From assembly GCF_021049285.1 (NCBI RefSeq), contig NZ_CP088017.1:3483380-3547379 (forward strand): DNA of 64,000 nucleotides. The letters run 5' to 3'. The DNA is from Ruania halotolerans. Its GTDB lineage: Bacteria > Actinomycetota > Actinomycetes > Actinomycetales > Beutenbergiaceae. Each line of letters begins with the position of its first letter. Positions within the stretch are counted from its first letter, which is position 1. The notes beneath the pieces were generated by a model that saw only the letters and a program-made list of their open reading frames with translations, had not been told where the DNA came from and made no database searches. The translations under genes and the position numbers were made by a program. Below are positions 8,292 to 44,114 of the stretch, piece by piece.

Positions 8292-8360
8292 TGATCTACT
8301 CCGTCCTTGGCTCAAGATCCTGGGCACACATCGTGGAGTCCCGCGCTCGCCCCTGTCGAT

Positions 8361-8377
8361 CAAATGGACAAAAGTGA
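8361..8377 (-). promoter_or_regulatory. Candidate operator A of the DeoR/LacI hybrid regulator
   Basis: Read on the minus strand, TTCACTTTTGTCCATTTG lies between the divergent dehydrogenase (start 8291) and regulator (start 8429). A near copy (TCGCTTTTGTCCTTTTT) occurs at 9537-9552 before the ABC importer, 14 of 16 aligned bases being the same. A shared site at both promoters next to a regulator gene is the usual layout of a local operator. Inference only. Confidence 0.45.
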
Positions 8378-8428
8378 ACGCGGTGCGCCACGATGCCTCG
8401 ATCACCGAGCACTTACCCGGAGCTGATC

Positions 8429-9535
8429 ATGCTGCCGCACGCACGACAAGAGTTCCTGCTGCGCCAGTTGGAGCTGCACGGCAGCCTCCGGGCAACTGAG
8501 GTTGCCCAGATGATGGGCGTCTCACCCGTCACGGTACGGCGCGATATCGCCGAGCTCGCGGACCAAGGCCGGGTGGAGCGCGTGCACGGCGGCGCGCTGT
8601 CCAACGGGAGCAGGGCCGGGCGCCCCGACGTGGCCAGAACGCTCATCGGAGTGGTGGTTCCCTCGCGAACGTTCTACTACCCCGATGTGCTCCATGGCAT
8701 GGAGTCAGTGGCAGCCACCATGCGTGCGAGGATCGTCCTGGGCGTGGCGGGGTACAGCCCTGAAGCCGAGCGAAGCCGGGTCGAGCGCCTGCTCTCCTTG
8801 GGCGTGGAGGGCCTCGTCCTCACACCGAGTCACGTCCAGGCGCCGGAGGAAACCGCGCCCTGGCTTGCCTCCATCCCTGTGCCTGTGGTGCTGCTCGAGC
8901 GACATCTCGATGCCACGCGCAAGGTACGGGAGATCGACAGCATTCGGTCCGACCACTCCTACGGGGCGATGCTCGCCGTCGATCATCTCGCTGCTCTCGG
9001 GCACACCAGGGTCGCTCTGGCGCTGGACTCGTGGACGCCGACGGCTCCATGGATCCGCACCGGGTATCTGGAAGCAGTGGACAAACTCGGCCTGGATCCC
9101 GTTCCGGTGACCGAGATGCCTTCGGGTTTCAACGACCTGCAGGCGATCACGGACGCGGCCGATGCAGTCCTGAACATGTGCCTGGCCTCACAGACCCGGG
9201 CGGTGCTCGCCCACTCGGACCATCACGCCATCCAGATCGCGGAGATCGCGCAGCTGCGCGGTCTGCGAGTCCCCGAGGACATCGCGGTCATTTCCTACGA
9301 TGACGTCCTGGTCGCGCACGCCGCCGTGCCGTTGACGGCCGTGACCCCGCCGCGGGTGGAGCTGGGCAGAGAGGCGCTTCGCATGCTGATGGGCCGGGTG
9401 GACGGCACCGAGGAGCCGAGTTCTCCTCGTCATGTGCAGCTCCTGCCTCGGCTGACCATCCGCGAGTCGTGCGGTGGATCGGTGCGCCTTCCCCCTCCAC
9501 GCCGTACCGCAGTTGCTCGCCCACGACGTCGATGA
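8429..9535 (+). CDS. Hybrid transcription regulator: DeoR-type HTH with LacI-type sensor domain
   Basis: 368 residues. Residues 1-55 are a DeoR-type winged HTH (MLPHARQEFLLRQLELHGSL, ATEVAQMMGVSPVTVRRDIA, then RVERVHGGAL), not the LacI HTH. From about 70 on it is a periplasmic-binding-protein-like effector domain of LacI/GalR type (LIGVVVPSRTFYYPDVLHGM, GLVLTPSHV, RSDHSYGAMLAVDHLAALGH, IAVISYDDV). ATG 8429 has GGAG 6 bases upstream. It is divergent from the dehydrogenase and precedes the dipeptide-type importer. The likely effector is a sugar-like or small organic ligand brought in by that importer. Confidence 0.88.
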   Translation: MLPHARQEFLLRQLELHGSLRATEVAQMMGVSPVTVRRDIAELADQGRVERVHGGALSNGSRAGRPDVARTLIGVVVPSRTFYYPDVLHGMESVAATMRARIVLGVAGYSPEAERSRVERLLSLGVEGLVLTPSHVQAPEETAPWLASIPVPVVLLERHLDATRKVREIDSIRSDHSYGAMLAVDHLAALGHTRVALALDSWTPTAPWIRTGYLEAVDKLGLDPVPVTEMPSGFNDLQAITDAADAVLNMCLASQTRAVLAHSDHHAIQIAEIAQLRGLRVPEDIAVISYDDVLVAHAAVPLTAVTPPRVELGREALRMLMGRVDGTEEPSSPRHVQLLPRLTIRESCGGSVRLPPPRRTAVARPRRR

Positions 9536-9536
9536 T

Positions 9537-9552
9537 CGCTTTTGTCCTTTTT
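9537..9552 (+). promoter_or_regulatory. Candidate operator B before the ABC importer operon
   Basis: TCGCTTTTGTCCTTTTT starts two bases after the regulator stop, about 200 bases before the binding-protein gene. It matches candidate operator A. The 218-bp region to 9753 holds no convincing gene and presumably the importer promoter. Confidence 0.45.
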
Positions 9553-9753
9553 CTCGTTCCGACCGCTCTCGCTGGCTAGCCTGACGACCGCAAGAGGGAC
9601 ACCGGCGCAGGTGTGAGGTTGACGAGCCATCACCGAGGAAGGCTCTGGACGTCACACCTATGGTGTGCTCGTGCCGACGACGGCACGCGTACGGCACCGG
9701 TCGCCCTCCCACGGATCAGTTGTCAGCCGTTAGTTCGGTCGAGGAGGACCACG

Positions 9754-14067: not shown

Positions 14068-16233
14068 ATGGGCGACATCCTCGCCGACGCCAGCCCCCGT
14101 CCCGACGCCCGCCCTACAGCACCATTGCTGGAGATCGCGGACCTGCACACACACTTCGATACCGCAGACGGCGACGTCCGAGCCGTCGACGGCGTCAGCC
14201 TCAGCGTGCGCCCCGGCCGCACGCTCTGCGTGGTGGGTGAGTCCGGATGCGGTAAATCCATCACGGCTCGCTCGGTGCTCCAACTGGTCGATCCGCCCGG
14301 CCGGATCGTCAGCGGCAGTGTCCGCTGGGAGAAGCCGGGCGATGATCCAGTCGATCTCACCACCCTGGAGCCGGACGGGGAGCGAATCCGCGAGATCCGC
14401 GGGAACGAGATCGGCATGGTGTTCCAGGAGCCGATGGCCTCACTCTCCCCCATGTACACGGTCGGGGCCCAGCTCACCGAAGCCATCCGACTGCACCGCG
14501 ATGTGGACCCGAAAGAGGCCCGCAGAATCGGTGTGGAACTGCTGGGCCGGGTCGGAATCCCGCAGCCCGAGGACCGTTTCGACGCTTACCCCTTCCAACT
14601 CTCCGGCGGCATGTGCCAACGCGTGATGATTGCGATCGCGCTGAGCTGCGATCCAGCCCTGCTCATCGCTGATGAACCGACCACTGCGCTCGACGTCACC
14701 ACCCAGGCCCGAATCCTGGACCTGCTCAAGGAGCTCCAGCAGGAGACCGGTATGGCGATGATGTTCATCACCCATGACCTGGGCGTGGTGGCCGAGATCG
14801 CCGACGACGTCACGGTGATGTACCTGGGCCGTGCCGTGGAGCACGGCACAGTCGAGCAGATCTTCACTGCACCGAAGCACCCGTATACGCGCGCACTCCT
14901 CGGATCCCTGCCCACGGTGGACGAGACCGCGGCACGGCGACCGTTGACGGCCATCCGTGGCATGGTGCCGCACCCCCAGAACAGGCCCAGTGGCTGCCCG
15001 TTCCGGACCCGGTGCGATTTCGCGATGGAAGGGGTCTGCGATGTGGACGCACCATCGGAGACCGAATTCGCCGATGGCCACCGGGCTTACTGCCATCTAT
15101 ACAGCGAATCGGAGGAGCGCAGCGCCTTCGAGCTACCGACTCCCGAACTGCGCGAACCCGTCGCAGCCACCACACGCACCGAACCGGCCGAAGGTGCGCC
15201 GCTGCTTGAGGTCAAGGGTCTGACCAAGCACTACGCCGTCTCGGGTGGAATGTTCCGGCGGCGTAAGGGAAGTGTGCACGCCGTCGACGGTGTGGACCTG
15301 ACCATCCGCCCCGGCGAGACACTGGGCCTGGTCGGTGAGTCCGGCTGCGGCAAGACCACACTCGGGCGGAGCATCGCCCGACTCGTTGACGCCTCGGCCG
15401 GGCAGATCCTCTTCCGCAAAGAGGACGGCGCTCAGGTCGATCTCGCACAGTTGCAGGGAGCGGCACTGCGCAGCTACCGAACCCAGGTGCGCGTGATCTT
15501 CCAGGATCCCTTCTCCTCACTGAACCCACGCATGACCGTGGAACAGATCGTCGGCGAACCGCTCAAAGCGAACGGGCTGGCCAGCGGCAGCGCCCTGAGC
15601 GACCGAGTCGCCCAGATGCTGCGACGAGTGGGGATCCGCCCGGAGTACATGCCGCGATACCCGCACGCGTTCTCCGGTGGAGAGCGCCAACGCCTGAACA
15701 TTGCCCGCGCCCTGATCACCGGACCACGCCTGGTCATCGCCGACGAGCCAGTCTCGGCACTGGACGTCTCGGTGCGAGCACAGATCCTGAACCTACTCGG
15801 CGACCTCCAGGACGAGTTCGGGCTCACCTACTTGTTCATCTCCCACGACCTGTCCGTGGTCGAGCACGTCAGTGACCGGGTCGCAGTGATGTACCTGGGC
15901 AAGATCATCGAAGAAGGGCCCACCGACGACCTGTACCGCGCACCACAACACCCGTACACCCAGACGCTCCTGCACGCCGTCCCGATCCCGGATCCGAGCG
16001 CCCGCCCTGAACGTGCAGCGGCAGGTTCGGACGAGCTACCCGACCCGATGAACCCGCCGGCCGGTTGCTCGTTCCACACCAGGTGCCCGTACGTCAAGGA
16101 CACTCCGTGCACGACGGTGCAGCCGGAGCTGCGCCCGGCAGGTGAGGACCGCAGCGCTGCCTGCCACTTCTCGGACGAGCTCACCCTGCCAGGAATCTCC
16201 CGCATGAGGGTCGAGGATCGCAGCAGCTCCTGA
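14068..16233 (+). CDS. Fused double ABC ATPase (DppD-DppF type)
   Basis: 721 residues carrying two complete ATPase halves. Half 1 (about 10-350) has Walker A GESGCGKS, signature LSGGMCQRV and Walker [13 protein letters not shown]. Half 2 (about 385-715) has [17 protein letters not shown] and [12 protein letters not shown]. Each half ends in the oligopeptide-transporter C-terminal Cys motif (CPFRTRC and CSFHTRC). ATG 14068 has GGGAGAG upstream. In most systems these are two proteins; the fusion guarantees a heterodimeric motor. It powers uptake by the two permeases just upstream and ends 25 bases from the convergent flavoprotein gene. Confidence 0.95.
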
Positions 16234-30572: not shown

Positions 30573-32051
30573 TCAACCGAAGGCACTCCCGACGGCGGCC
30601 CAGGCCTGATATTCCGACAGGTCCGGTTCGTAGTGGCGCAACTCGAGTCCGCGAGCTCCCACCCGTCGTAGTGCGGAGAGGTCGCCACCGAGCACACGGG
30701 CCGCCCGTGCCTGCACCAGCACGTTCCCCAGGGCCGTCCCCTCCTCGGGCCCGGCAATCACCGGCAGACCGATGGCGTCCGCCGCCGCCTGGCACAGCAA
30801 CGCGTTCCTGGACCCTCCGCCGACGATATGAACCACCCGCACCGGTTTTCCCGACAGCGACGTGGCGTCGGCGATCGCGCGGCGGTAGGCCACCGCGAGC
30901 GAGTCGATCACACACCGGGCCACCTCGCCTGGAGTCACCGGCTCCGGCTGCCCCGTGCTGCGCGCATGGGCGGCGAGCCGGGCCGGCATATCACCTGGTG
31001 GGAGGAAGTCCGGGTGATCCACATTGAGCACGGTACGCCGCGCCGGCACGTGGGCAGCGCCGGTGAGTAACTGCTCGATGCCGATCTGCTGCCCGCGTTC
31101 GGCCCAGACCCGCTGGGACTCCGAGAGCACCCACAGGCCCATCACATTGCGCAGGTACCGGACGGTGCCGTCCACACCGAGCTCGTTGGTGAAGTTCGCC
31201 GCGCGCGATTCCTCGGTCAGCACGGGAGCGTCCAGCTCCACCCCCACCAGGGACCACGTGCCCGAGGAGATGTAGGCAAAGTCGCTCCCCTCGGCGGGCA
31301 CCGACGCGACGGCGGAGGCCGTGTCGTGCGAGCCGACGGCGTAGACGGGCACCGCTCCCAATCCGGTGCGCTCCCGTATCTCAGCGGTGAGCACCCCGAT
31401 CTGCGTTCCTGGTTCGACGACGGGCGGGAACAGATCGGCCGGGATACCCAACCGGTCCATCAGCACCTGTGACCAGGCCCGGCTGCGCTGGTCGAGCAGT
31501 GCCGTACTGGAGGCGTTGGTGAGTTCACTGACCCGTTGCCCGGTGAGCCAGTAGGCGAGCAGATCCGGCAGCAGCAGCGCCTGGTCGGCCCGGTCCCACA
31601 GCTGGCCACGCCGTTCGGCGGCGAGCTGGTAGATCGTGTTGAACGGCAGGTGCTGCATACCGGACACCCCGTACAGCTCATCGGGAGGGACGGCAGCGTG
31701 CACCTGCTCGATCACCTGCTCAGTGCGCGAATCCCGGTACGCCACCGGTTCGGCGAGCAGCTGACCTGCCGCATCCAGCAGGCCGTAGTCCACGGCCCAC
31801 GTGTCGATCCCGATGCCGAGCAGCGGTCCGGCTTCGCCGGCGGTCTGCAGACCCTGAAGCACCTGCTCGAACAGCGAGCTGAGATCCCAGCGCAACGTTC
31901 CGCCGTCATCGGCTTCGGCGGCATTGGCGAACCGGACCACCTCACGCAACCGGACGCCGTCGGCGCCGGAGGGGTCCACCTCAGCGCGGATCACCCGCCC
32001 CGAGGTGGCCCCCAGATCGACGGCCGCAAATGCTGCGACCTGCTCCCCCAT
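30573..32051 (-). CDS. rhaB: Rhamnulokinase
   Basis: A 492-residue FGGY-family kinase that phosphorylates L-rhamnulose to L-rhamnulose 1-phosphate using ATP. N-terminal ATP-site motif AVDLGATSGRVI (about 10-21), substrate motif IGIDTWAVDYGLLD, the rhamnulokinase pattern GVSGMQHLPFNTIYQL, and the C-terminal nucleotide motif VVHIVGGGSRNALLCQAAAD. The ATG overlaps the stop of rhaEW (TGATG), so the two are translationally coupled. It is the last gene of the rhaI-rhaEW-rhaB operon. Confidence 0.96.
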   Translation of the reverse strand: MGEQVAAFAAVDLGATSGRVIRAEVDPSGADGVRLREVVRFANAAEADDGGTLRWDLSSLFEQVLQGLQTAGEAGPLLGIGIDTWAVDYGLLDAAGQLLAEPVAYRDSRTEQVIEQVHAAVPPDELYGVSGMQHLPFNTIYQLAAERRGQLWDRADQALLLPDLLAYWLTGQRVSELTNASSTALLDQRSRAWSQVLMDRLGIPADLFPPVVEPGTQIGVLTAEIRERTGLGAVPVYAVGSHDTASAVASVPAEGSDFAYISSGTWSLVGVELDAPVLTEESRAANFTNELGVDGTVRYLRNVMGLWVLSESQRVWAERGQQIGIEQLLTGAAHVPARRTVLNVDHPDFLPPGDMPARLAAHARSTGQPEPVTPGEVARCVIDSLAVAYRRAIADATSLSGKPVRVVHIVGGGSRNALLCQAAADAIGLPVIAGPEEGTALGNVLVQARAARVLGGDLSALRRVGARGLELRHYEPDLSEYQAWAAVGSAFG

Positions 32052-34087
32052 CAGCGCAGGAAGGCAGCGGCCACGCCGGAATCCACCGGAACGTGCAGAC
32101 CGGTGGTCTGGCTCAGGTCACCGCCGGTGAGGGCGAAGACGGCGGCCGCCACGTGTTCGGGGAGCACCTCACGCTTGAGCAGCGTGCGCTGGGCGTAGTA
32201 CTGGCCCAGTTCCTCTTCCTTGACGCCGTAGACAGCGGCCCGCTTGGCGCCCCACCCGCCGGCGAAGATGCCGGAACCGCGGACCACGCCGTCGGGGTTG
32301 ATGCCGTTCACGCGCACGCCGTGCTCACCGAGTTCGGCCGCGAGCAGGCGGACCTGGTGGGCCTGATCGGCCTTGGTGGCCGAGTAGGCGATGTTGTTCG
32401 GGCCGGCGAAGAGGGAGTTCTTGGAGGCGATGTAGACGATGTCGCCGCCGAGTTTCTGGGCGATCAACGCACGGGCTGCCTCGCGGGCCACCAGGAACGA
32501 ACCCCGGGCCATCACGTCGTGCTGCAGGTCCCAGTCCTTCGTCGTGGTCTCCAGCAGCGGCTTGGAGATGGACAGGCCGGCGTTGTTCACCACGAGGTCC
32601 ACGCCTCCGAAGGCGAGTGCAGCGGCGTCGATGAGGGCGCTGACCTGGGCCTCGTCGGTGACGTCACACGCCACGGCCGCAGCGACGTCAGGGCCACCGA
32701 GCTCGTCGGCCACCGCCTGGGCCGCTTCCAGGTTGAGGTCGGCAATGACGACGCAGGCGCCCTCAGCAGCCAGTCGCGTGGCGATGGCCTTGCCGATCCC
32801 GGACGCCGCACCGGTCACCAGGGCCACCCGGGTGGCGAGCGCCTTGGGCTTGGGCATCCGCTGGAGCTTGGCCTCCTCGAGCGCCCAGTACTCGATCCGG
32901 AACTTCTCCGACTCCTCGATGGGCGCGTAGGTGGAGAGGGCTTCCGCGCCGCGCATCACGTTGATGGCGTTCACGTAGAACTCACCGGCCACACGAGCGG
33001 TCTGCTTGTTCTTACCGAAGGAGAACATCCCGACGCCGGGAACGAGCACGATCGCCGGGTCCGCACCGCGCATGGCAGGCGAGTGCTCACCGGCGTGCCT
33101 GTCGTAGTACGCGGCGTACTCGGCGCGGTAGGTCTCGTGCAACTCCTCGAGCCGGGCCACCACATCCGCCACGGGCGCGTCGGCCGGCAGGTCCACCACC
33201 AGCGGCTTGACCTTGGTGCGCAGGAAGTGGTCCGGGCACGAGGTGCCCAGCTCGGCCAGCGGGGCGAGCTTCTCGCTGGCGAGGAAGTCCAAGACGACAT
33301 CCGCATCGGTGAAGTGGCCGATCTGCGGGGCATCGGTGCTGGCGATGCCGCGGATGGTCGGGGCGAGGGCGGCGGCCTTCGCGCGGCGCTCAGCCTCGGG
33401 GAGCGCTTCGTAGCCAGGCCGCACGGCACCGAACGGGTCGGCCTTGCCGTTCTCGGCGATGTAGGTCTCGGCGGTGCGGATGATCTCCAGGGAGTTCGCC
33501 TCGGCCTGCTCGGAGGTCTCACCCCAGGCGGTGATGCCGTGGCCGCCGAGGATGCAACCGATCGCCTGGGGGTTCTCTGCCTTGATCGCTGCAATATCCA
33601 GCCCGAGCTGGAAACCGGGGCGGCGCCACGGCACCCAGACGACCCGGTCGCCGAAGATGCGGGAGGTGAGCGCTTCGCCGTCGGCGGCGGTGGCGATCGC
33701 GATGCCGGAGTCCGGGTGCAGGTGGTCCACATGCGGGGCGTCCACGAGAGCGTGCATGGCGGTGTCGATGCTCGGGGCGGCGCCGCCCTTGCCGTGCAGG
33801 CAGTAGTCGAATGCGGCCACCATCTCGTCTTCGCGGTCCACTCCCGGGTAGACATCGATGAGGGAGCGCAGGCGGTCCAGGCGGAGCACGGCCAGGCCGG
33901 TCTCCTTCAGGGTGCCGAGGTCACCGCCGGAGCCCTTGACCCAGCACAGTTCGACGGCTTCGCCGGTGACCGGATCGGTGTCGGCGCCCTTGGCGGAGGT
34001 GTTGCCGCCGGCGTAGTTGGTATTGCGTGGATCGGCGCCGAGCCGGTTGGAACGGGTGATCAGGTCGGTGACTGCCTGGTTCGTCAT
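32051..34087 (-). CDS. rhaEW: Bifunctional rhamnulose-1-phosphate aldolase/lactaldehyde dehydrogenase
   Basis: 678 residues. The N-terminal class II aldolase domain (about 1-390) cleaves L-rhamnulose-1-P to DHAP and L-lactaldehyde; NYAGGNTSAKG, WVKGSGGDLGT and the zinc-type DHLHPDSGIA are visible. The C-terminal SDR domain (about 420-678) oxidises lactaldehyde to L-lactate: VTGAASGIGKAIA, VVNNAGLSISKPL and a catalytic YSATK. The end SQTTGLHVPVDSGVAAAFLR is typical of RhaEW. It lies between rhaI (59 bases upstream) and rhaB. It channels a toxic aldehyde to L-lactate, which fits a lactate oxidase sharing the same operator. Confidence 0.95.
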   Translation of the reverse strand: MTNQAVTDLITRSNRLGADPRNTNYAGGNTSAKGADTDPVTGEAVELCWVKGSGGDLGTLKETGLAVLRLDRLRSLIDVYPGVDREDEMVAAFDYCLHGKGGAAPSIDTAMHALVDAPHVDHLHPDSGIAIATAADGEALTSRIFGDRVVWVPWRRPGFQLGLDIAAIKAENPQAIGCILGGHGITAWGETSEQAEANSLEIIRTAETYIAENGKADPFGAVRPGYEALPEAERRAKAAALAPTIRGIASTDAPQIGHFTDADVVLDFLASEKLAPLAELGTSCPDHFLRTKVKPLVVDLPADAPVADVVARLEELHETYRAEYAAYYDRHAGEHSPAMRGADPAIVLVPGVGMFSFGKNKQTARVAGEFYVNAINVMRGAEALSTYAPIEESEKFRIEYWALEEAKLQRMPKPKALATRVALVTGAASGIGKAIATRLAAEGACVVIADLNLEAAQAVADELGGPDVAAAVACDVTDEAQVSALIDAAALAFGGVDLVVNNAGLSISKPLLETTTKDWDLQHDVMARGSFLVAREAARALIAQKLGGDIVYIASKNSLFAGPNNIAYSATKADQAHQVRLLAAELGEHGVRVNGINPDGVVRGSGIFAGGWGAKRAAVYGVKEEELGQYYAQRTLLKREVLPEHVAAAVFALTGGDLSQTTGLHVPVDSGVAAAFLR

Positions 34088-34146
34088 GGGTGCCTTCCGG
34101 GAGAGGGTCTGGCTTGTCGTCGGCGATGCAGTGGTGGTTCGAGAGG

Positions 34147-35325
34147 TCAGGCGCCCCAGCCGGCCTGCTGTCCGCCTACGCGCTCGGCAGCGATCGTGTC
34201 CTGATAGCCGGAGGCGATGAACGCGGCGATGGGATCCTCGGCGAGGCCCTTCGCGGCGCGGACCTCGGCGAGCAGGGGGCGCACGTCGGTGTTGTACGCA
34301 TCCATCAGCAGCGCATTCGCACCGAGCACATCACCGGCGAACTGCGCCGCACGCAGCGCCTCGCGGTCCACGAGCAGCGCCTTCGCAGTGGCCTCCTGCA
34401 CGTTCATCACCGAACGGATCTGGCCCTGAATCTTCGGCTCGATGTTGTGGCACTGGTCGAGCATGAAGTTCACGCCGGAATCGGGGCGGAGCGCATCGGC
34501 TGAGACGATCTCGTTCATGATGCGGAACAACTGGAACGGGTCTGCCGCGCCCACGATGAGGTCGTCGTCGGCGTAGAAGCGGGAGTTGAAATCGAAGGCG
34601 CCGAGCTTCCCGAGCCGCAGCAGCTGGGCCACGATGAACTCGATATTCGTGCCGGGGGCGTGGTGGCCGGTGTCGAGCACCACACTCGCCTGGTCACCGA
34701 GGGCGAGGCAGTGCACCAGCGACGTGCCCCAGTCAGGGATGTCCATCGTGTAGAAGTACGGCTCGAAGAACTTGTACTCCAGGATCAGCCGGTGATTCGG
34801 GTCGAGCTCGGCGTAGATCTGCTGCAGTGAGTCGGCGAGGCGGTCCTGGCGGCCGCGGATATCGTCCTGGCCCGGGTAATTCGTGCCGTCCGGGAGCCAG
34901 AGCTTGAGATCGGTGGATCCAGTGGCCCGCATCACGTCGATGCACTGCTTGTGATGGTCGATGGCCTTCGCGCGGATCGCCGCATCCGGGTGAGTGAGAG
35001 AACCGAGCTTGTAGTCCTCATCCTGGAAGAGGTTGGAGTTGATCGCACCGATCTGCACGCCGAGGTCACCTGCATGGGCGGCCAGCGTGGAGATGTCGTC
35101 CACGAGGTCCCACGGGATGTGCAGGGAGACCCTTGGCGCCGCTCCGGTGTAGGCGTGCACCTGGGCGACGTCAGCGATCTTCTCGAATGGATCCCGCGGC
35201 ACGCCGGGGGTGGAGAACACCTTGAAGCGGGTCCCGGAGTTGCCGAACGCCCAGGAGGGGAGCTCGATGGTCTGGGCAGCGAGGGCGTCGCGCACCTGCG
35301 GGGCGTCAGTGGCCGAGGTGGTCAT
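34147..35325 (-). CDS. rhaI: L-rhamnose isomerase, RhaI (Pseudomonas) type
   Basis: A 392-residue TIM-barrel isomerase, L-rhamnose to L-rhamnulose, of the metal-dependent RhaI group rather than E. coli RhaA. Metal-site segments are LILEYKFFEPYFYTMDIPDW (Glu), VVLDTGHHAPGTNIEF (Asp/His) and GAFDFNSRFYADDDL (Asp). The early motif ELPSWAFGNSGTRFKVFSTP is typical of the group. ATG 35325 has GGAG upstream; the longer frame runs through the operator. It is first in the rhaI-rhaEW-rhaB operon, with a TGAAACGATTCA site 50 bases before it. Confidence 0.95.
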   Translation of the reverse strand: MTTSATDAPQVRDALAAQTIELPSWAFGNSGTRFKVFSTPGVPRDPFEKIADVAQVHAYTGAAPRVSLHIPWDLVDDISTLAAHAGDLGVQIGAINSNLFQDEDYKLGSLTHPDAAIRAKAIDHHKQCIDVMRATGSTDLKLWLPDGTNYPGQDDIRGRQDRLADSLQQIYAELDPNHRLILEYKFFEPYFYTMDIPDWGTSLVHCLALGDQASVVLDTGHHAPGTNIEFIVAQLLRLGKLGAFDFNSRFYADDDLIVGAADPFQLFRIMNEIVSADALRPDSGVNFMLDQCHNIEPKIQGQIRSVMNVQEATAKALLVDREALRAAQFAGDVLGANALLMDAYNTDVRPLLAEVRAAKGLAEDPIAAFIASGYQDTIAAERVGGQQAGWGA

Positions 35326-35374
35326 GGGGGTGCACTCCAAGTCCGGTGATGACGACGGCGGTCGCCATTCGATC

Positions 35375-35386
35375 TGAAACGATTCA
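35375..35386 (+). promoter_or_regulatory. Candidate rhamnose-regulon operator 2
   Basis: TGAAACGATTCA is a near-perfect LacI-type palindrome (TGAA...TTCA around CG). It lies in the divergent region between rhaI (start 35325) and the Pls-type synthetase (start 35477), close to the rhaI start, as expected for repression of rhaI. Confidence 0.65.
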
Positions 35387-35476
35387 TCACTCGGGGTCAC
35401 GATAAGAGATCCGGGCTGGAGCCGTCAAGGCACCCGTGCCCGCTGCGCTCTGACCCGGACGACCACCGGGAGGGCC

Positions 35477-38400
35477 ATGAGCACGCCCGCCCCCGGTATG
35501 GGCCAGACTGTTCCCGTGCTCGCCCCCGGCCCGCTGCCCACCTTGCTCGCCTCTGACCGCGCCGCCCCCGCTCGCACGTTGCTCGACGTCTTCACGGACT
35601 CACTCAGCGCCCACCCCGAGGAACTCGCCCTCGACAGCGGCGTGGCCCAGCTGACCTATCGCGAGTTCGCCGAGGCCGCCGGTGAACTCGCGGACCGGCT
35701 CACCGCCCTGGGCACCCGTCGCGGCGACCGGATCGGCCTGCGAGTGAGCTCTGGGACCACCGAACTGTACGTGGCCGTCCTCGGCATCCTGATGGCTGGC
35801 GCTGCCTACGTCCCCGTCGACGCTGACGATCCACCCGAACGCGCCCGCACCGTCTTCACCGAGGCAGCTGTCGTGGCAGTCGTGGGGAACGGTCTGGAGA
35901 TCACCGCGGCCGCTGCGGCCGGTGGCGCGCAGGCTTTCGCCAATCGCGACCGCGCCGCCGCGACCGCCCCGGAGCGCGCACCCCGGCCCGGCGATGACGC
36001 CTGGATCATCTTCACCTCCGGCTCCACCGGGACTCCGAAGGGGGTCGCCGTCACGCATCGCAGCGCCGCGGCCTTCGTGGACGCAGAGTCGCACCTGTTC
36101 CTCACCTCCGATCCGATCGGCCCTGGCGACCGGGTGATGGCTGGGCTCTCCGTCGGCTTCGATGCGAGCTGCGAGGAGATGTGGCTCGCGTGGGCACACG
36201 CTGCCTGCCTCGTGCCCGCACCTCGCTCCTTGGTGCGTTCGGGAGTCGACGTCGGCCCCTGGCTCACCGCCAACGACATCACCATCGTCTCCACAGTGCC
36301 GACCCTGGTGGCCCTCTGGCCAGCCTCGTCCCTGGACCGGGTCCGTCTGCTGATCCTCGGCGGCGAGGCGGCTCCCGCCGAACTCGCCGCCCGGCTACAA
36401 CGCCCTGGACGTGAGGTCTGGAACACCTACGGTCCCACCGAGGCGACCGTGGTCGCTTGCGCAGCGCCGATGGACGGCACCCAGCCCGTACGGATCGGGC
36501 TACCACTGGCAGGCTGGGACCTCGCCGTCGTCGATGGTGGTGGCGCCCCGGTGGCTGAAGGCGAGACGGGTGAGCTGATCATCGGTGGCGTCGGGCTGGC
36601 CCGGTACCTCGATCCGGACCAGGACGCTGAGAAGTACGCTCCGATGCCGAGCCTTGGCTGGGCTCGCGCGTATCGTTCGGGAGACATGGTCCGCAATGAC
36701 GCTGCCGGCCTCGTATTCGCCGGCCGCGCCGATGATCAGATCAAACTCGGCGGCCGTCGGATCGAACTCGGGGAGATCGACGGTCAGCTCCTTCGCCTCC
36801 CAGGCGTGGTCAGTGCGGCAGCCGCCGTGCGCGGCACAGCGGCAGGCAACCAGGTGCTGGTCGGTTACCTCACGGTGGACCAGAGCTTCGAGCACGGCGC
36901 CGCCGTGGAGCTCCTCCGGGATCGCATGCCTGCCGCACTCGTGCCACGCCTCGCCGTGGTGGAGGAGATGCCCACCCGCACGTCCGGCAAAGTGGATCGG
37001 GACGCGCTGCCGTGGCCACTGCCCAGCAGTTTCACCACGTCCGGCACAACCGAGCCCACTCAGCGGTCCGCGACCCAGGAATGGCTCGCGGGCATCTGGC
37101 ACGACGTGCTCGCCGCCGACCCGGTGGACCTACGGGCGGACTTCTTCGAGCTCGGCGGCGGCTCGCTCACTGCGGCACAGACCGTGGGAAGGATCCGGGA
37201 GCGCTACCCCGAGGTCGCCGTCGCGGATATCTACGCGAACCCGACCATCGGCGCGCTCTCTGCGTACCTGGAGGGCCTGCGCACCACCACCGCGCGCACG
37301 AACACCGCGGTCTCGCCCATTCGCACGAAGACGAAGGCGGGTCAGCTCCTCGCCTTCTACCCGCTGCGCGGGCTGACCTCGATGCGATGGCTTTCCTGGC
37401 TGCTCCTGGTGAGTCTGCTGGTGCATCCGGCCATCGACTGGCTGCCCGCACCGCCCGTGTGGCTGGTGGCCCTCACCACCGCGGCATTCGTGATCCCGCA
37501 GGGCAGGATGCTGGTCGCGGCCGGGTTGATCCGGCTCGTGTTGCGCGGCGTCCGGCCCGGCACCTACCCGCGCGGCGGGAAAGTGCACCTGCGGTACTGG
37601 CTGGCCGGCCGCATCCAGGATGATCTCGCCGCAGCCAGCCTCGCCGGTGCCGCGTCGATCACCTGGTACGCCCGGCTGCTGGGCGCCCGGATCGGGCCGA
37701 ACGTGGACCTGCACGCGCTGCCACCGGTCACCGGGTTCCTCGATATCGGCGCTCGCGCCAGCGTGGAGCAGGAGGTGGACCTGACCGGAGCATGGATCGA
37801 CGGCGATCGCGTGCACCTGGGCCGGATCACGATCAGCTCCCGGGCACGGATCGGCGCTCGCAGCACTCTCGGCCCCGGCGCCACGGTCGGCCAGCGTGCG
37901 GAGGTCGCACCGGGTTCATTCGTCGCCGGCCGGGTACGGGCCGAGCGCTTCGTCTCCGGATCCCCGGCCGAAGACACCGGCCAGGCACGCGGCCCATGGT
38001 CCAAGCGAGAGCCGTCGGGTCGGCGCGCCTGGGTGGCCGGGTACGCCGTCACCGGGGTTCTGCTCTCCGCCCTGCCGTGGCTGGCAGCCACGATCGGAGG
38101 GCTGGTGCTATGGCCCGCGTTGCGCGATTCCGCCAGCCTGAGGCAGGCATGGGCGACGGCGTGGCCGTTGCTGCCGCTCGCGGCGTTCGCCGGATACGCC
38201 GCCCTGATCGGCCTGGTCCTGGTGACCGTGCGTCTGCTCTCCCTGGCGATCCGCACCGGGCCCGTCCCCGTGCGCTCCGGAGGCGGTCTGGCCGTCTGGG
38301 CCACGGTGCGGCTGCTGGATGAGGCGCGGGATTGGTTGTTCCCGCTCTACGCGGGTGCACTCACACCCTGGTGGCTGCGGGCCCTCGGTGCCACCGTGGG

Positions 38401-39442
38401 CCGAGGTGTCGAAGCATCCACTGTGGTCCTGATCCCCAAGCTCACCCAGATCGGTAGTCAGTCCTTCCTCGCCGACGACACACTCGTGGGTGGCTACGAA
38501 CTCACCGGAGGCTGGCTGCGCGCGGAACGCGTGAAGGTCGGCAAACGAGCCTTCCTCGGAAACTCCGGGATGGCCGCGCCCGGGCGGAAGATCCCCAAGG
38601 CCTCCCTGGTCGCCGTGCTCTCGGCGGCGCCGAAGCGTGGCGCCGCCCGAGCGGGGTCCTCCTGGATCGGGAGCCCGCCCACCCAGTTGCGCCGCGTGGC
38701 CGGTAGCGCCGACGAGTCACGCACGTACCAACCGACCATCCGCTTGCGCGTGCTGCGCGGACTCGTGGAAACCTGCCGCGTGATTCCGCTGTTCCTCTCC
38801 GTGTGCCTCATGGTGGGAGTAGGTCTGAGCCTGCTGATCCTGCTCGGCACGGGCCCGGTCGACCAGGGGTGGTCCTGGGGGCGCTTCATCACCGCGGGAT
38901 TGGTCGGTCCCGTGATCCTGCTTGCTGCCGCTCTGCTGGCTGCGGGAATCACCGTGGCCGCGAAGTGGCTGCTTGTCGGAGCCCACAAGGTGGGCGAGCA
39001 CCCGCTCTGGAGCGGGGCCGTGTGGCGCGGAGAGCTGGCCGATGCATTCACCGAGGTGCTCGCCGCGCGCTGGTTCTGTTCCCTCGCGCAAGGCACGGTC
39101 GCGTTGAATATGTGGTTCCGCGCGCTCGGCGCGAAGATCGGTGACGGCGTGTGGTGCGATACCTACTGGCTACCCGAACCTGATCTCGTCGAACTTGGCG
39201 CAGGATCGTGCGTCAATGCCGGGTGCGTGGTGCAGACGCACCTATTCCACGACCGCGTGCTTGCGATGGACCGGGTGATCATCGGCCCCGGCGCCACGCT
39301 CGGGCCGAACAGTGTGATCCTGCCAGCTGCCCACCTCGATCGTGAGGCGACCGTCGGGCCAGCCTCCCTCGTGATGCGCGGCGAATCCGTGCCGAGCCGC
39401 ACCCGCTGGCTCGGCAACCCGATCGGCCCCTGGGAGGAGTGA
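35477..39442 (+). CDS. Pls/PosA-type single-module non-ribosomal peptide synthetase with membrane and beta-helix domains
   Basis: 1321 residues. Residues about 35-515 are an adenylation domain: core A3 FTSGSTGTPKGVAVTH near 180, A4 GFDASCEEMWLAW near 230, A5 NTYGPTEATV, A7 YRSGDMV and A10 RTSGKVDRDAL. A carrier domain follows (ELGGGSLTAA, phosphopantetheine Ser near 563). The rest is three repeated blocks, each with membrane helices and left-handed beta-helix hexapeptides (LGRITISSRARIGARSTLG; GPGATLGPNSVILPAAHL). This is the plan of epsilon-poly-lysine synthetase-like enzymes, with no condensation or thioesterase domain. GGGAGG precedes the ATG. It heads a unit with the M1 peptidase. Product unknown; Glu in A4 hints at a basic amino acid. 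Confidence 0.92.
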   Translation: MSTPAPGMGQTVPVLAPGPLPTLLASDRAAPARTLLDVFTDSLSAHPEELALDSGVAQLTYREFAEAAGELADRLTALGTRRGDRIGLRVSSGTTELYVAVLGILMAGAAYVPVDADDPPERARTVFTEAAVVAVVGNGLEITAAAAAGGAQAFANRDRAAATAPERAPRPGDDAWIIFTSGSTGTPKGVAVTHRSAAAFVDAESHLFLTSDPIGPGDRVMAGLSVGFDASCEEMWLAWAHAACLVPAPRSLVRSGVDVGPWLTANDITIVSTVPTLVALWPASSLDRVRLLILGGEAAPAELAARLQRPGREVWNTYGPTEATVVACAAPMDGTQPVRIGLPLAGWDLAVVDGGGAPVAEGETGELIIGGVGLARYLDPDQDAEKYAPMPSLGWARAYRSGDMVRNDAAGLVFAGRADDQIKLGGRRIELGEIDGQLLRLPGVVSAAAAVRGTAAGNQVLVGYLTVDQSFEHGAAVELLRDRMPAALVPRLAVVEEMPTRTSGKVDRDALPWPLPSSFTTSGTTEPTQRSATQEWLAGIWHDVLAADPVDLRADFFELGGGSLTAAQTVGRIRERYPEVAVADIYANPTIGALSAYLEGLRTTTARTNTAVSPIRTKTKAGQLLAFYPLRGLTSMRWLSWLLLVSLLVHPAIDWLPAPPVWLVALTTAAFVIPQGRMLVAAGLIRLVLRGVRPGTYPRGGKVHLRYWLAGRIQDDLAAASLAGAASITWYARLLGARIGPNVDLHALPPVTGFLDIGARASVEQEVDLTGAWIDGDRVHLGRITISSRARIGARSTLGPGATVGQRAEVAPGSFVAGRVRAERFVSGSPAEDTGQARGPWSKREPSGRRAWVAGYAVTGVLLSALPWLAATIGGLVLWPALRDSASLRQAWATAWPLLPLAAFAGYAALIGLVLVTVRLLSLAIRTGPVPVRSGGGLAVWATVRLLDEARDWLFPLYAGALTPWWLRALGATVGRGVEASTVVLIPKLTQIGSQSFLADDTLVGGYELTGGWLRAERVKVGKRAFLGNSGMAAPGRKIPKASLVAVLSAAPKRGAARAGSSWIGSPPTQLRRVAGSADESRTYQPTIRLRVLRGLVETCRVIPLFLSVCLMVGVGLSLLILLGTGPVDQGWSWGRFITAGLVGPVILLAAALLAAGITVAAKWLLVGAHKVGEHPLWSGAVWRGELADAFTEVLAARWFCSLAQGTVALNMWFRALGAKIGDGVWCDTYWLPEPDLVELGAGSCVNAGCVVQTHLFHDRVLAMDRVIIGPGATLGPNSVILPAAHLDREATVGPASLVMRGESVPSRTRWLGNPIGPWEE

Positions 39443-39444
39443 CA

Positions 39445-40773
39445 GTGACCCGCCCGGACGCGCTGACCACCGCAGACTCGACCGATCCGTACATGCCCGG
39501 ACACGGCGATCTGAGCTACGCCGTCGACCACTACGACCTGGACCTCGTCTATCAGCCCCGTAGCAACTTGCTTGACGGCGTGGCCGAGGTACGGCTGCGC
39601 ACGCGCGCTGAGACCACCACGCTGCGGTTCGATCTCCACCACCTCCGGGTGACGACGGTCTCCGTGGCCGGGGCCCCGCTGCGCAAGTACACACGTAACC
39701 AGAGGCACCTGGACCTCACCCTGAACAGCGCCGTCCCCGCTGGCACGGGCCTCACCGTCCGGATCGAGTACGGCGGCAACCCACGGCCGGTGCGCTCGGC
39801 CTCCCTGGGTGAGGCCGGGTGGGAGGAGCTGACGGACGGGGTGATCGTGGCCTCCCAACCACACGGTGCGCCGTCGTGGTTTCCGTGCAACGACCAAGCC
39901 CGGGACAAGGCGCGCTACGACGTGCGGCTGACCGTACCTGCCGAGTACACCGCAGCCTTCAGCGGTCAGACGCACGCGGTGAAACGGCGAGGATCGCGGT
40001 GCACCTGGACGTTCCAACAGCGCCACCCGATGGCGCCGTACCTCGCCAGCCTGCAGATTGGCAAGTACCGCGAGCAGGTCGTGGACGGAGCTGGCGTGCC
40101 GATCCGCGTGCTGCGCGCCGAACGCCTCCCAGAGGCCGCATTCGTGGCATCCTTCGGCCGCCAGCGCGAGATGCTCCGCTGCTTCGAAGAGGCGTTCGGG
40201 CCATACCCGTTCGATTCCTACACCTGCGTGATCACCGATGACGCACTGGAAATCCCCCTCGAGTCGCAAGCACTCTCGACCTTCGGGCGTAACCACTGTT
40301 CGGCGGACTTGGGCGCGGTTCGCCTCATCGCACACGAGTTGTCACATCAGTGGTTCGGCAACGCGGTCACCGCCGCTGCGTGGCGGGACATCTGGCTGCA
40401 CGAGGGATTTGCCTGCTTCAGCGAATGGGTGTGGTCGGAGCATTCCGGTGGGCCCAGCATCGCCGACCAGGCGCGCGCCTCCCATGACCGGTTGAGCAGG
40501 CTGCCGCAGGACCTCACCCTCGGGGATCCGGGTGCCGCAGACATGTTCGACGACCGCGTGTACAAGCGCGGGGCGCTGACCCTGGCCGCGCTCCGGGACC
40601 TGATCGGTGTGCACGCGTTCACCCTCCTGATGCACCGCTGGGTGGCGCAGAACTGCGGCGGAGTTGTCAGCACGGAGGACTTCATCGCGCTCGCCGAGGA
40701 GGTGGGTGGGCAGTCGCTGGGTACGTTCTTCGACGGGTGGCTCTACCGGCGCGACCTACCGGCGTGGAGCTGA
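39445..40773 (+). CDS. M1 family zinc metallopeptidase (aminopeptidase)
   Basis: About 442 residues, shorter than classical aminopeptidase N: it has the N-terminal saddle domain and the catalytic domain but lacks the large helical C-terminus. Zinc site HELSHQWFGN with the third ligand Glu in WLHEGFACFSEW; the substrate-side motif is LEIPLESQALSTFG in place of GAMEN. The start overlaps the synthetase stop region; GTG 39445 has GAGGAG 5 bases upstream, GTG 39439 is the alternative. No signal peptide, so it acts in the cytoplasm. Coupling to the Pls-like gene suggests it trims or degrades the product or protects the cell from it. Confidence 0.9.
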   Translation: MTRPDALTTADSTDPYMPGHGDLSYAVDHYDLDLVYQPRSNLLDGVAEVRLRTRAETTTLRFDLHHLRVTTVSVAGAPLRKYTRNQRHLDLTLNSAVPAGTGLTVRIEYGGNPRPVRSASLGEAGWEELTDGVIVASQPHGAPSWFPCNDQARDKARYDVRLTVPAEYTAAFSGQTHAVKRRGSRCTWTFQQRHPMAPYLASLQIGKYREQVVDGAGVPIRVLRAERLPEAAFVASFGRQREMLRCFEEAFGPYPFDSYTCVITDDALEIPLESQALSTFGRNHCSADLGAVRLIAHELSHQWFGNAVTAAAWRDIWLHEGFACFSEWVWSEHSGGPSIADQARASHDRLSRLPQDLTLGDPGAADMFDDRVYKRGALTLAALRDLIGVHAFTLLMHRWVAQNCGGVVSTEDFIALAEEVGGQSLGTFFDGWLYRRDLPAWS

Positions 40774-40793
40774 GCCGCCCACAGGTCAGCGCC

Positions 40794-41294
40794 CTACCCC
40801 ACGCACACGCGGGCGGTGAATCCGGACGGTGCCGGGATCTCCTGGACGCGGAAATCTGCCGCCCGGATCGTTGGCATCGGCACACTCAGCCCGGTTCCGA
40901 GCATCTTCAGAATCGCCTCCTTGGCCACCCAGAGGCCGAGGAGTTCCCGGCTGGACTCGTCCGGGTGCCGGACGAGCGAAGAGTCCACTGAGATCGACGC
41001 GATCTGCTCCACGTCCGCGCCGATCCCGATCGCTGCCCCATCGAGATCTGCGACGGTGAGCAGGTGCGGCCCGGCACGAGCGGCCGATACCGGGATGGCC
41101 AGGGATCCCACTCGTGCCCACGGGCGGCCGTGATCCGACCCGCCGCACGCCGGGCACAGGTGGCCGACCCTGAGGTCGGCCACAGCAGGCATAGCCAACG
41201 CGGTCCCGAGGTGCTCGCGCAGCGCCTGAGCGGTGCTCGACTCGGCACAGTGCCAGCGCACACTGACCGGCACATAGGTGGGCATCGCCGTCAT
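40794..41294 (-). CDS. 4'-phosphopantetheinyl transferase
   Basis: About 166 residues. The Mg/CoA-binding motifs are GIGADVEQI and LWVAKEAILKMLGTGLSVPM, the Sfp-type signature. It is short for Sfp (about 220) and has a Cys pair (CPACGG) in an early loop. The start is uncertain (ATG 41294 or 41285). It converges on the M1 gene. Its likely role is to load the phosphopantetheine arm onto the synthetase carrier Ser, completing a three-gene system. Confidence 0.87.
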   Translation of the reverse strand: MTAMPTYVPVSVRWHCAESSTAQALREHLGTALAMPAVADLRVGHLCPACGGSDHGRPWARVGSLAIPVSAARAGPHLLTVADLDGAAIGIGADVEQIASISVDSSLVRHPDESSRELLGLWVAKEAILKMLGTGLSVPMPTIRAADFRVQEIPAPSGFTARVCVG

Positions 41295-41325
41295 TGTGGC
41301 AGGCGCTTCCGCCACGGGTCGGCAG

Positions 41326-41337: not shown

Positions 41338-41378
41338 CTCCCCGGATGGGTGCAAGCCCAGTGAAGAAGGGGAGAGAC

Positions 41379-42407
41379 ATGGCTAAGCGCGGCGCGGCGA
41401 AACGTCCAAGCGTCACCGATGTTGCCAAACAGGCGGGTGTCTCAGTCGGCACTGTCTCCAATGTGCTGAACCGGCCGGACTCGGTGGCACCGGCCACCCG
41501 CGCAAAGGTCGAGCAGGCGATCAGCACACTGCGCTTCGTCCGCAACGCGTCCGCCCGCCAGCTCCGCAGCGGTGAGATCAGCACGGTCGGTGCGGTGGTC
41601 TTGGACATCGCCAACCCGTTCTTCACTGAGATGGCCCGCGGAATCGAGGACCGGCTCGCCCAGGACGATCACACGCTGATGCTGTGCAGTTCGGACGAGA
41701 ATCCCAGCCGTGAGGCGCGATTCCTCCGGCTGTTCGAGGAGCACGGGGTCCGGGGCGTCATCGCGACCCCCTCGAACGGCAGCCTGGACGGCCTGCTGGC
41801 GCTGCGCGAACGCGGTATCGAGGTAGTCCTGCTCGACCACACCTCGCCCGACCCGGATGTCGGTTCGGTGGCCGTGGACGACGTCGGTGGGGCGGGCCTG
41901 GCGATCGAACACCTGCTGAGCCTGGGCCACACCCGCTTCGCATTCCTGAACGGCCCGCTCACCCTGCGCCAGTGCGTGGACCGGCGCGAGGGTGTCATCG
42001 CCACGCTCACCGCACACGGGTTGGATCCCGCCGAAGCGCTCACCGAGATCAACCTGGATGCACTGAACGCGACCACTGCCGACGCGGCCGTGCGCCGCTT
42101 GCTCGCCGAGGACGGACCTCGCCCGACGGCGATGTTCTGCGCGAACGACTTCACTGCCCTCGGCGCCCTGCGCGCACTCCGCGATAGCGGCGTCTCGATC
42201 CCCGAGGAGATGGCCGTGGTGGGCTACGACGACGTCATCTTCGCCTCCATGCTGACCACGCCACTGACGTCGGTGCGCCAGCCCATGCACACACTGGGGT
42301 GGACCGCCGCGGACATGCTGCTCACCGAATCGGGTACCGACGCGGCACGACAGGTGGAGTTCGAGCCCGAACTGGTCGTGCGCGCCTCCAGCACGTCCGG
42401 TCAGTGA
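41379..42407 (+). CDS. LacI family regulator, candidate rhamnose regulator
   Basis: 342 residues. HTH: RPSVTDVAKQAGVSVGTVSN (about 9-28), hinge with the LacI Leu-Ala region RQLRSGEISTVGAVVLDIAN. Sensor-domain motifs are VAVDDVGGAGLAIEHLLSLG and MAVVGYDDVIFASMLTTPLT. GGGGAG is upstream of ATG 41379. It is remote from the rhamnose genes, but a TGAAACGATAAA site before it resembles the operators of both rhamnose operons and of the lactate oxidase. That makes it the best local candidate for RhaR. Other LacI genes here have their own clear local targets. Confidence 0.9.
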   Translation: MAKRGAAKRPSVTDVAKQAGVSVGTVSNVLNRPDSVAPATRAKVEQAISTLRFVRNASARQLRSGEISTVGAVVLDIANPFFTEMARGIEDRLAQDDHTLMLCSSDENPSREARFLRLFEEHGVRGVIATPSNGSLDGLLALRERGIEVVLLDHTSPDPDVGSVAVDDVGGAGLAIEHLLSLGHTRFAFLNGPLTLRQCVDRREGVIATLTAHGLDPAEALTEINLDALNATTADAAVRRLLAEDGPRPTAMFCANDFTALGALRALRDSGVSIPEEMAVVGYDDVIFASMLTTPLTSVRQPMHTLGWTAADMLLTESGTDAARQVEFEPELVVRASSTSGQ

Positions 42408-42497: not shown

Positions 42498-44114
42498 ATG
42501 ACGGCGGAACTGGTGATGGAGCGGCCCGCGAGCGGTCTTCCGGGAGTCGAGGGCACGGCGCGGCCACTGAGGGTCGTCACCGCTGACGACACGACTGATC
42601 ACACGCCTGATGGTGCGACGCGCTCCGTGCAGGATCTGGCGATCGAACTGGGTTCGCTGGCGGCAGCGATCGCAGCGCAGACGGGCCGTTTTCTGATGGT
42701 GCTGGCCGAGTTCGATGCCCGGGACGGTTGGACGGTGTGGTCGGGGATGACGTCGACGGCACATTGGCTGTCCTGGCAATGCGGCATGGCCCGGGTCACA
42801 GCCCGCGAGCATGTCCGGGTCGCCCGGGCGCTGGTCGCACTCCCTGTCACGGCGGCAGAACTCGGGGCAGGCCGGCTCAGCTACTCGAAGGTTCGCGCGA
42901 TCACGCGGGTGGCTACGCGCGAGACCGAGGCAGACCTGGTCGCGGTGGCGCAGGCGGCCACGGCTGATCAACTGGACCGGTTCTGTGCGGGTGTACGCAC
43001 CGGCACCTCGGTGGATGAGGTGAGCGACCGGCACGAGCGGCGCCACCTGACCCACCGTTTCGACCCGGACGGGATGATGAGCATGCACGCGCGCTGCTCT
43101 CCAGAAGAAGGTGCGGTGATCATCGACCTGCTGCACCGGGTGCAGCGCTACCTGGACCGCTCCGCCGTACCCGAGGATGAGGACGATCATCGCCTCCCGG
43201 GAACCGGTCACGGATTGATCGATGCGCTGGTGCTGGTGTGTGAGCAGTTCGAGCTCAGCTCGGACGACTCGGGCGATGGCAGTGGGAGTGAGTCGGCCGA
43301 TGCAGCGACTTCTCCCTCGCGAGCTTCCCGGCGTGGTGAGGCAGTGCTGCACGTGACTCTCGATGATCTGACCAGGGTCCGGCTGAGCGAGTCACCGCCT
43401 GTGCTGCCAGGGCAGCCGGAGACGCTGATCGGGCCACATCTGGAGTGCGGACCGGTGCTGCACCCGCACACGGCACGACGCCTCACCTGCGACACCGGCG
43501 TCGTGCTACACATCCACGACACTGCCGGCGACAGGCACGACATCAGCCCCGATGGGACTACTCCTGCGACCGTGGTCACACCCAGCGCCAGGCCCGGTCG
43601 AACGATCGATCTGGGCCGGCGCTGGCGCACCCCGAACGCGGCTCTGTGGCGCGCACTGTGGGACCGAGACGGAGGCTGCGTCTTCCCGGCATGCGGCCGG
43701 CGCCGCTACGTCCACGGCCACCACCTTGTGCACTGGGCCGACGGCGGACCCACGGATCTGGATAATATGGTCCTGCTCTGTGGAGCCCACCACCGGGCAC
43801 TCCATGAGGGCGGCTTCGAGATCACACGCCGCCGCGACGGGACCCTCCGCGTCCAAGACCGCGACGGAGAAACAGTTCCCAGAGTTCCCGCAGTGCCACC
43901 ACCACCCGCTCGTGCTGGACATCAGCACACCTTCCCCGGCACGGAGCCCGCCACGCAGGAACCACCGCCCGGCCACCCGCTACCGCTCGCCGCCACCGAT
44001 GGCGGTCCCCTGAATCTGGGCTACGCCGTCAACGTCGCACTCACCAACTGGCAGATCCGGGCCAACCGGCGCGAGCAGCGTCGTCACCGGCCCAGCGACG
44101 GCGCAGCGGCCTAG
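42498..44114 (+). CDS. DUF222 and HNH endonuclease-domain protein (13E12-repeat type)
   Basis: 538 residues. The DUF222 region spans about 40-300 (GWTVWSGMTSTAHWLSWQCG, then VTAREHVRVARALVALP and LSYSKVRAITRVAT). The HNH motif is at about 393-440 with CVFPACGRRR, the HH pair in VHGHHLVHWADGG, DNMVLLCGAHHRALHEGG. The C-terminus is polar. Many actinobacteria carry several copies; function is not established, and a link to mobile elements or phage defence is often suggested. GAAGGGG is upstream of the ATG. No partner gene lies next to it. Confidence 0.92.
   Translation: MTAELVMERPASGLPGVEGTARPLRVVTADDTTDHTPDGATRSVQDLAIELGSLAAAIAAQTGRFLMVLAEFDARDGWTVWSGMTSTAHWLSWQCGMARVTAREHVRVARALVALPVTAAELGAGRLSYSKVRAITRVATRETEADLVAVAQAATADQLDRFCAGVRTGTSVDEVSDRHERRHLTHRFDPDGMMSMHARCSPEEGAVIIDLLHRVQRYLDRSAVPEDEDDHRLPGTGHGLIDALVLVCEQFELSSDDSGDGSGSESADAATSPSRASRRGEAVLHVTLDDLTRVRLSESPPVLPGQPETLIGPHLECGPVLHPHTARRLTCDTGVVLHIHDTAGDRHDISPDGTTPATVVTPSARPGRTIDLGRRWRTPNAALWRALWDRDGGCVFPACGRRRYVHGHHLVHWADGGPTDLDNMVLLCGAHHRALHEGGFEITRRRDGTLRVQDRDGETVPRVPAVPPPPARAGHQHTFPGTEPATQEPPPGHPLPLAATDGGPLNLGYAVNVALTNWQIRANRREQRRHRPSDGAAA

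Follow-up and report, generated by a model that had tools for sequence, protein, structure and literature searches.

The window, a stretch of 64,000 nucleotides from Ruania halotolerans, contains a block of three open reading frames for a synthetase, an M1 metallopeptidase, and, on the opposite strand, a phosphopantetheinyl transferase (Table 1). The original prediction had placed these three genes at this locus, and both the open frames and the domain matches bear it out. Only the right end that it gave for the block, 41294, did not stand, being an internal ATG of the third frame, which starts at 41315. The TGA stop codon of the synthetase gene occupies positions 39440-39442 and is overlapped by the GTG of the peptidase gene at 39439 (GTGA). 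The second in-frame GTG of the peptidase gene has a better-placed GGAGGAG within the end of the synthetase gene and would leave a gap of 2 nt, so that the peptidase start abuts the synthetase stop, as had been described, whichever start is used. The transferase gene is convergent with this pair, also as predicted, with 20 nt between its stop codon and that of the peptidase gene.

The block is flanked by a rhamnose isomerase gene (minus strand, start at 35400) and a gene for a LacI-type regulator (start at 41346). A rhamnose-use neighbourhood thus encloses it (window positions 32051-35400 and 41346-42407; bifunctional RhaD, RhaI, and the LacI-type regulator), and a frame of 538 amino acids with matches to DUF222 and an HNH endonuclease lies downstream (42498-44114). 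Scans for promoters and terminators were uninformative: a single promoter-like site precedes rhaI on the minus strand, against 0.3 expected, and a single terminator-like site falls within pls, against 1.2 expected.

Table 1 Features of the three-gene block (positions in the window).
Feature	Position	Strand	Basis
Shine-Dalgarno-like GGGAGG ahead of the pls ATG	35468..35473	+	read from the sequence
pls-type synthetase, predicted product epsilon-poly-L-lysine; A-T-terminal domain, 1321 aa	35477..39442	+	TIGR02353, 656.9 bits (cut-off 423.1); 50% identity over 1303 columns, at full length, to the NCBI-named Pls of Streptomyces sp. NBC_01454
Adenylation domain, code D229 A230 E233 S272 I293 G295 T317 V325 V326 K505 (DAESIGTVVK)	35573..37012	+	code identical to that of PDB 7wew
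Carrier (T) domain with phosphopantetheine site GGGSL (residue 560)	37079..37270	+	one of two PF00550 matches in the genome
Terminal domain (TIGR02353; C1-C3) of membrane and left-handed beta-helix segments, presumably condensing	37343..39424	+	family match, AlphaFold model, hexapeptide acetyltransferase matches
QTHLFHD (residues 1253-1259), candidate catalytic QxHxxxD motif in the third beta-helix	39233..39253	+	conservation and remote alignment
M1 metallopeptidase, pldII-like, 444 aa	39439..40773	+	GTG start, 4-nt overlap with the pls stop (alternative GTG 39445)
Phosphopantetheinyl transferase, convergent, 173 aa, probably dedicated to the Pls carrier domain	40794..41315	-	domain match, motifs, neighbourhood

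The synthetase matched the AMP-binding (E = 1.7e-62) and carrier (PF00550, E = 5.2e-13) domains of Pfam and exceeded the cut-off for the 'Pls/PosA family' terminal domain TIGR02353, in agreement with the predicted single-module A-T synthetase of the Pls/PosA type. As had also been proposed, no canonical condensation domain was found; neither a condensation nor a thioesterase domain of Pfam was detected at an E value of 0.001. The second protein matched Peptidase_M1 (E = 5.7e-27) together with its N-terminal domain and contains HELSH...E, corresponding to the HExxH-E zinc site of the M1 type; H299, E300, H303, and E322 were each present in all 112 aligned sequences. Its best solved M1 relative is 6a8z (E = 9.6e-50), a 'zinc metalloprotease' of 474 amino acids that presumably derives from Deinococcus. 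6a8z is close to the peptidase in its short length, with the aminopeptidase N entries of the same list being far longer (about 870-970 amino acids). The transferase is of the ACPS type, scoring 31 bits against a Pfam cut-off of 25 for PF01648 and 21.8 against a cut-off of 45.35 for NCBIfam TIGR00556, and carries the DxE and KEAxxK motifs of phosphopantetheinyl transferases of the ACPS superfamily.

Lysine pocket and pairing with an M1 peptidase

The ten-residue specificity code of the window enzyme, read from an alignment to 7wew at positions set by the core motifs of adenylation domains, is identical at 10 of 10 positions to that of this structure, the adenylation domain of an epsilon-poly-L-lysine synthase from S. 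albulus. Among solved structures, the synthetase has its best relative in 7wew, with 62.3% identity across 488 columns of the adenylation domain. The same positions in the Acinetobacter baumannii homologue gave DMEHNGTVSK, which is the code printed for PosA in PMC10522769. The procedure therefore returns the published ornithine code where it is expected and separates the classes. Four further fetched relatives gave DFEYLGTVTK, DLEDIGSVVK, DSECYGGVTK, and DFEYNGTVTK, and all five proteins with other codes were about 29-33% identical to the window synthetase. According to PMC10522769, Ala at position 2 of the code goes with lysine, Met with ornithine, and Phe with shorter diamino acids; the window synthetase has Ala, and not the Met or Phe of a PosA-type pocket. 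Coryneform Pls homologues whose pocket is the same or nearly so have been assigned to lysine (PMC8117764). These data strongly suggest that the adenylation domain activates L-lysine, with the solved domain 7wew and an NCBI-named Pls as the references for the Pls assignment, and with the code leaving both the linkage (alpha or epsilon) and the chain length unfixed. The acidic residue in the A4 motif (DASCEE) had been read as a sign of a basic substrate, and this reading holds.

The arrangement of pls with a downstream peptidase gene pldII has been described previously (PMC8117764 and PMC9223678), and the window locus, an operon with a pldII-type peptidase gene, is thus a further member of a known arrangement. 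According to PMC9223678, pldII is translationally coupled to pls, and PldII degrades the polymer, protects the producing strain, and alters chain length. Like pldII, the window metallopeptidase gene overlaps the pls stop codon, but the published frame is 1404 bp in length whereas the window protein has 444 amino acids; the comparison, including placement of PldII in family M1, is by gene position beside pls rather than by alignment to a confirmed PldII sequence. A plasmid of Streptomyces sp. NBC_01454 carries an 'epsilon-poly-L-lysine synthase Pls' gene that likewise overlaps by 4 nt the gene following it, which encodes an 'M1 family metallopeptidase', and this M1 protein is 41% identical to the window peptidase. 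The predicted coupling of an M1 peptidase to the synthetase is supported by the domain match and the overlap. The block had further been credited with activating and processing one amino acid product; 'processing' calls for rewording, because PMC9223678 describes PldII as breaking down the polymer, protecting the producer, and influencing chain length.

To place the locus among its relatives, 59 relatives and 296 genomes from the phylum were searched with TIGR02353 (with up to three candidates scored per genome in one search). Outside the window, 35 places exceeded the family cut-off; wider stretches were fetched for all 35 and for one below the cut-off. Of these 36 places, 32 have a homologue that contains an adenylation domain, with the lysine code in 31 and another code in one (L079); the remaining four (L084, L089, L094, and L095) belong to a split type and do not enter the code count. 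All 31 lysine-code loci have a same-strand M1 gene downstream of the synthetase gene, at a distance of about 3.5 kb in L072. In one of the surveyed loci, L070, pls occupies two overlapping frames (7255-10910), as from a frameshift or an assembly error. A second set comprised 80 named loci, the best 80 of 584 confirmed in a species collection, and showed the lysine code in 80 of 80 and a downstream M1 gene in 80 of 80, within 100 nt in 75. The search patterns for this second set included the A4 motif CEEMWLAW, so that selection partly accounts for its uniform code; the 32 loci of the first set were drawn from the terminal-domain family and are free of this bias. The order of synthetase and peptidase genes across both sets is therefore not due to chance.

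The best solved relative of the peptidase, 6a8z, has no known tie to such a polymer, as might be expected if the M1 protein were a housekeeping aminopeptidase or had some other role and were a neighbour only. Its constant same-strand position downstream of lysine-code synthetases in both sets, and the published coupling and activity of PldII (PMC9223678), render such a reading very unlikely, however, and point to a peptidase that acts on the product of the synthetase. The M1 neighbour also bears on the substrate. Cationic homopolymers of other diamino acids (ornithine, diaminobutyrate, diaminopropionate, or beta-lysine) exist among relatives according to PMC10522769, and their synthetases belong to the same family, TIGR02353. 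The codes of these classes differ from that of the window enzyme, with Ala at position 2 going with lysine in the same source, and a close, collinear M1 partner tracks the lysine code. The plasmid loci with other codes (L189-L192) yielded no M1 relative in the fetched stretch at an E value of up to 1, the fifth other-code locus (L079) has a distant, convergent one, and the lysine-code plasmid loci L188 and L193 have M1 relatives at 41% and 45% identity. We therefore consider a product built from another diamino acid to be highly improbable.

In L079 (2518-6636 and 6653-8107), the synthetase has the code DFEYNGTVTK, and the M1-family gene, which is 17 nt away, encodes a protein 29% identical to the window peptidase over 183 residues; here an M1 peptidase may have become paired with a homopolymer synthetase independently. 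This locus led us to abandon a rule confining the M1 neighbour to the lysine code.

The original prediction called the product of this subgroup unknown. Given that the pocket matches that of epsilon-poly-L-lysine synthetase at all ten positions and that the adjoining peptidase fits the published pls partner (PMC8117764 and PMC9223678), the product is instead predictable. The locus is placed in the epsilon-poly-L-lysine class, which answers the question left by that first reading, and a new product class was rejected because pocket identity and the collinear peptidase fit lysine. We are thus highly confident in predicting, from the genes, a pls-pldII operon for epsilon-poly-L-lysine accompanied by a probably dedicated activating enzyme. 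It is very probably an ordinary actinobacterial set for production of this antimicrobial polymer and for self-protection of the producer. The window synthetase shares its domain order, ten-residue pocket, terminal-domain family, and coupled downstream peptidase with Pls of Streptomyces albulus, Kitasatospora, and Corynebacterium variabile (PMC8117764), but it is only 50% identical to a Streptomyces Pls and its locus is adjoined by a convergent transferase gene. It shares family, architecture, and a QTHLFxDR motif with PosA, the delta-poly-L-ornithine synthetase of A. baumannii, from which it differs in code and overall sequence (28.9% identity), with PosA having no M1 relative nearby.

Terminal part and candidate condensation site

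A structure model of the terminal part of the synthetase (residues 615-1321) was obtained with AlphaFold (pLDDT 85.3, pTM 0.89). The modelled helices are arranged in three pairs and the short strands in three blocks, corresponding to six helices and three beta-helices and agreeing with the three membrane/beta-helix blocks predicted originally; hydropathy alone gave five segments. Six membrane helices and three left-handed beta-helices are also predicted for Pls in PMC10522769, where this region is regarded as the polymerising part, and the location of condensation in the C-terminal part is thus a view already published there.

Of 42 aligned family members, including other-code and split enzymes, 41 extend across the QxHxxxD motif of the third beta-helix, and all 41 have Q1253, H1255, and D1259. 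R1260 was present in 38 of these 41, and all 42 aligned sequences have D1000 in the second block. Comparison of the whole terminal model with hexapeptide acetyltransferases by Foldseek gave weak matches (best E = 1.1e-4, TM-score to the model of 0.18 or less). Superposition of the third block on these enzymes with VIA-align was best for 3nz2_C (Z = 12.4, rmsd 3.4, 142 aligned residues, 11% identity). By sequence, the terminal-domain profile matches hexapeptide acetyltransferases with a best E value of 1.3e-8, mostly via the first block. A profile of the third block matched 20 frames in the fetched loci, 16 of which span the H1255 column, with His present in 13 of the 16 (the exceptions being L044, L030, and L026). 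Nine of these 13 frames were scanned with Pfam, and eight exceeded the hexapeptide-repeat cut-off, with L045 falling just short.

The matching His of hexapeptide acetyltransferases has a catalytic role, and we propose H1255 as a candidate general base for the incoming amine. On the basis of conservation and remote alignment, the most likely condensing site would be formed by this His with Asp1259 near in sequence, acting in the manner of a hexapeptide acyltransferase. The window enzyme resembles maltose- and galactoside-type hexapeptide-repeat acetyltransferases in the fold of the third block (3nz2_C) and in this His column; it differs from them in that the terminal part is fused to A-T domains and membrane helices, and CoA is not expected to be the donor. 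The QxHxxxD motif offers a target for mutagenesis in the search for the amide-bond site of enzymes that have no canonical condensation domain.

The locus might operate as follows. The phosphopantetheinyl transferase would load the phosphopantetheine arm onto the Pls carrier domain, and the adenylation domain, which pocket identity strongly implicates in activation of L-lysine, would pass the activated residue to this arm. The membrane beta-helix part would link the lysines through their epsilon-amino groups and the chain would leave the cell, as known for the family. The translationally coupled M1 peptidase would degrade epsilon-poly-L-lysine, serving in self-protection and chain trimming as does PldII of S. 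albulus.

Linked transferase and distribution of the block

With an iterated profile, a convergent transferase homologue ending near the M1 stop codon was found for 12 of the 31 loci with the lysine code. The named set (best 80 of 584) gave 24 such cases, from Nocardioides, Ornithinimicrobium, Kocuria, Aeromicrobium, Microbacterium, Arthrobacter, and others. No linked transferase was detected by profile in 19 of the 31 and 56 of the 80, including the Nocardia, Rhodococcus, Mycobacterium, Mycolicibacterium, and Tsukamurella loci of the best 80 of 584, as well as, in the first survey, L080-L083 (genomes of 8-10 Mb from one genus). The sequence of one Rhodococcus locus (L131) stops at the M1 stop codon and could not show a linked transferase. 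The idea that such a transferase always accompanies the synthetase was dropped because of the 19 loci. Three synthetase-positive genomes (G011, G012, and G016) have one PF01648 match each; the profile revealed a linked homologue that Pfam had missed in G012 and G016 (L062 and L071) and none in G011. Among 38 aligned neighbouring transferases, DxE is kept in 37 and KEAxxK in 24, being altered in 14, and 4 of 8 tested fell below the Pfam cut-off for PF01648. These counts led us to reject the idea that all neighbouring transferases are active.

The window genome has PF00550 matches in two places (the synthetase and a frame of 105 amino acids) and PF01648 matches in two (a frame of 120 amino acids and the transferase of the block). 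The 105- and 120-amino acid frames presumably encode the fatty-acid carrier protein and AcpS, respectively. With two carrier domains and two transferases, the synthetase is the probable sole client of the convergent transferase, on a count that carriers below detection would escape. None of the literature matches listed joins a phosphopantetheinyl transferase with a poly-L-lysine synthetase, and we do not claim the link as unpublished. In some of the actinobacteria, the known pls-pldII pair is extended by a phosphopantetheinyl transferase linked to it. Given that a heterologous host may lack a partner that loads the carrier domain, the linked transferase is also a practical hint for production.

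Within the genus, the synthetase exceeded the cut-off in four of eight members (G000, G003, G004, and G006) and not in the other four. All seven other genus members have rhaI and the LacI-type gene, which are about 6 kb apart in the four carriers, about 0.2 kb apart in G001, and about 1.0-1.3 kb apart in G002, G005, and G007. No remnants of the three genes were detected at the empty sites of the four non-carriers by tblastn at an E value of 0.01, and a gene for a DeoR-type regulator lies in the gap in G002 and G005 (two gaps searched). The numbers of PF00550 and PF01648 matches, respectively, were 2 and 2 in each of G000, G003, and G004 and 3 and 2 in G006; in the non-carriers they were 1 and 2 (G001), 1 and 1 (G002 and G005), and 1 and 0 (G007, a draft of 360 contigs). 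The second PF01648 match of G001 argues against a simple one-to-one rule for carriers and transferases.

The absence of the block from four of the eight genus members and the pls of L070 in two frames would be compatible with a silent or decayed locus that gives no product, and a strain of C. variabile formed no polymer under the conditions tried, even though its Pls yielded epsilon-poly-L-lysine in S. coelicolor (PMC8117764). The three window frames are nevertheless intact, with catalytic motifs and Shine-Dalgarno-like sites in place, and three genus members keep all three genes, with a protein identity of about 82% for the synthetase. We regard a locus that yields no product as extremely improbable, and the prediction of epsilon-poly-L-lysine as product is retained. 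A broader and tentative reading, possible but somewhat doubtful as a whole, would take the block as a self-contained, movable polymer-antibiotic unit (synthetase, coupled immunity peptidase, and a transferase with the synthetase as its sole client) gained or lost whole at one site, and the membrane part as a hexapeptide acyltransferase adapted to polymerise through amide bonds at one site only, QxHxxxD of the third beta-helix, while the first two blocks would mainly provide structure or guide the chain.

Two large-genome relatives have the Pls-type terminal domain and a carrier domain in one protein (L084, 6533-8890 and 8894-11650; L089, 9190-11769). The adenylation domain of L084 is in an adjoining protein, and a BLAST-type match indicates the same for L089, giving a split version of the synthetase. 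In L095 (8654-11236), a terminal-domain protein carries three tandem carrier domains and matches the terminal profile only to position 434 of 695; a phosphopantetheinyl transferase homologue is encoded nearby (15048-16001), and the same genome (G028) also has an ordinary pls.
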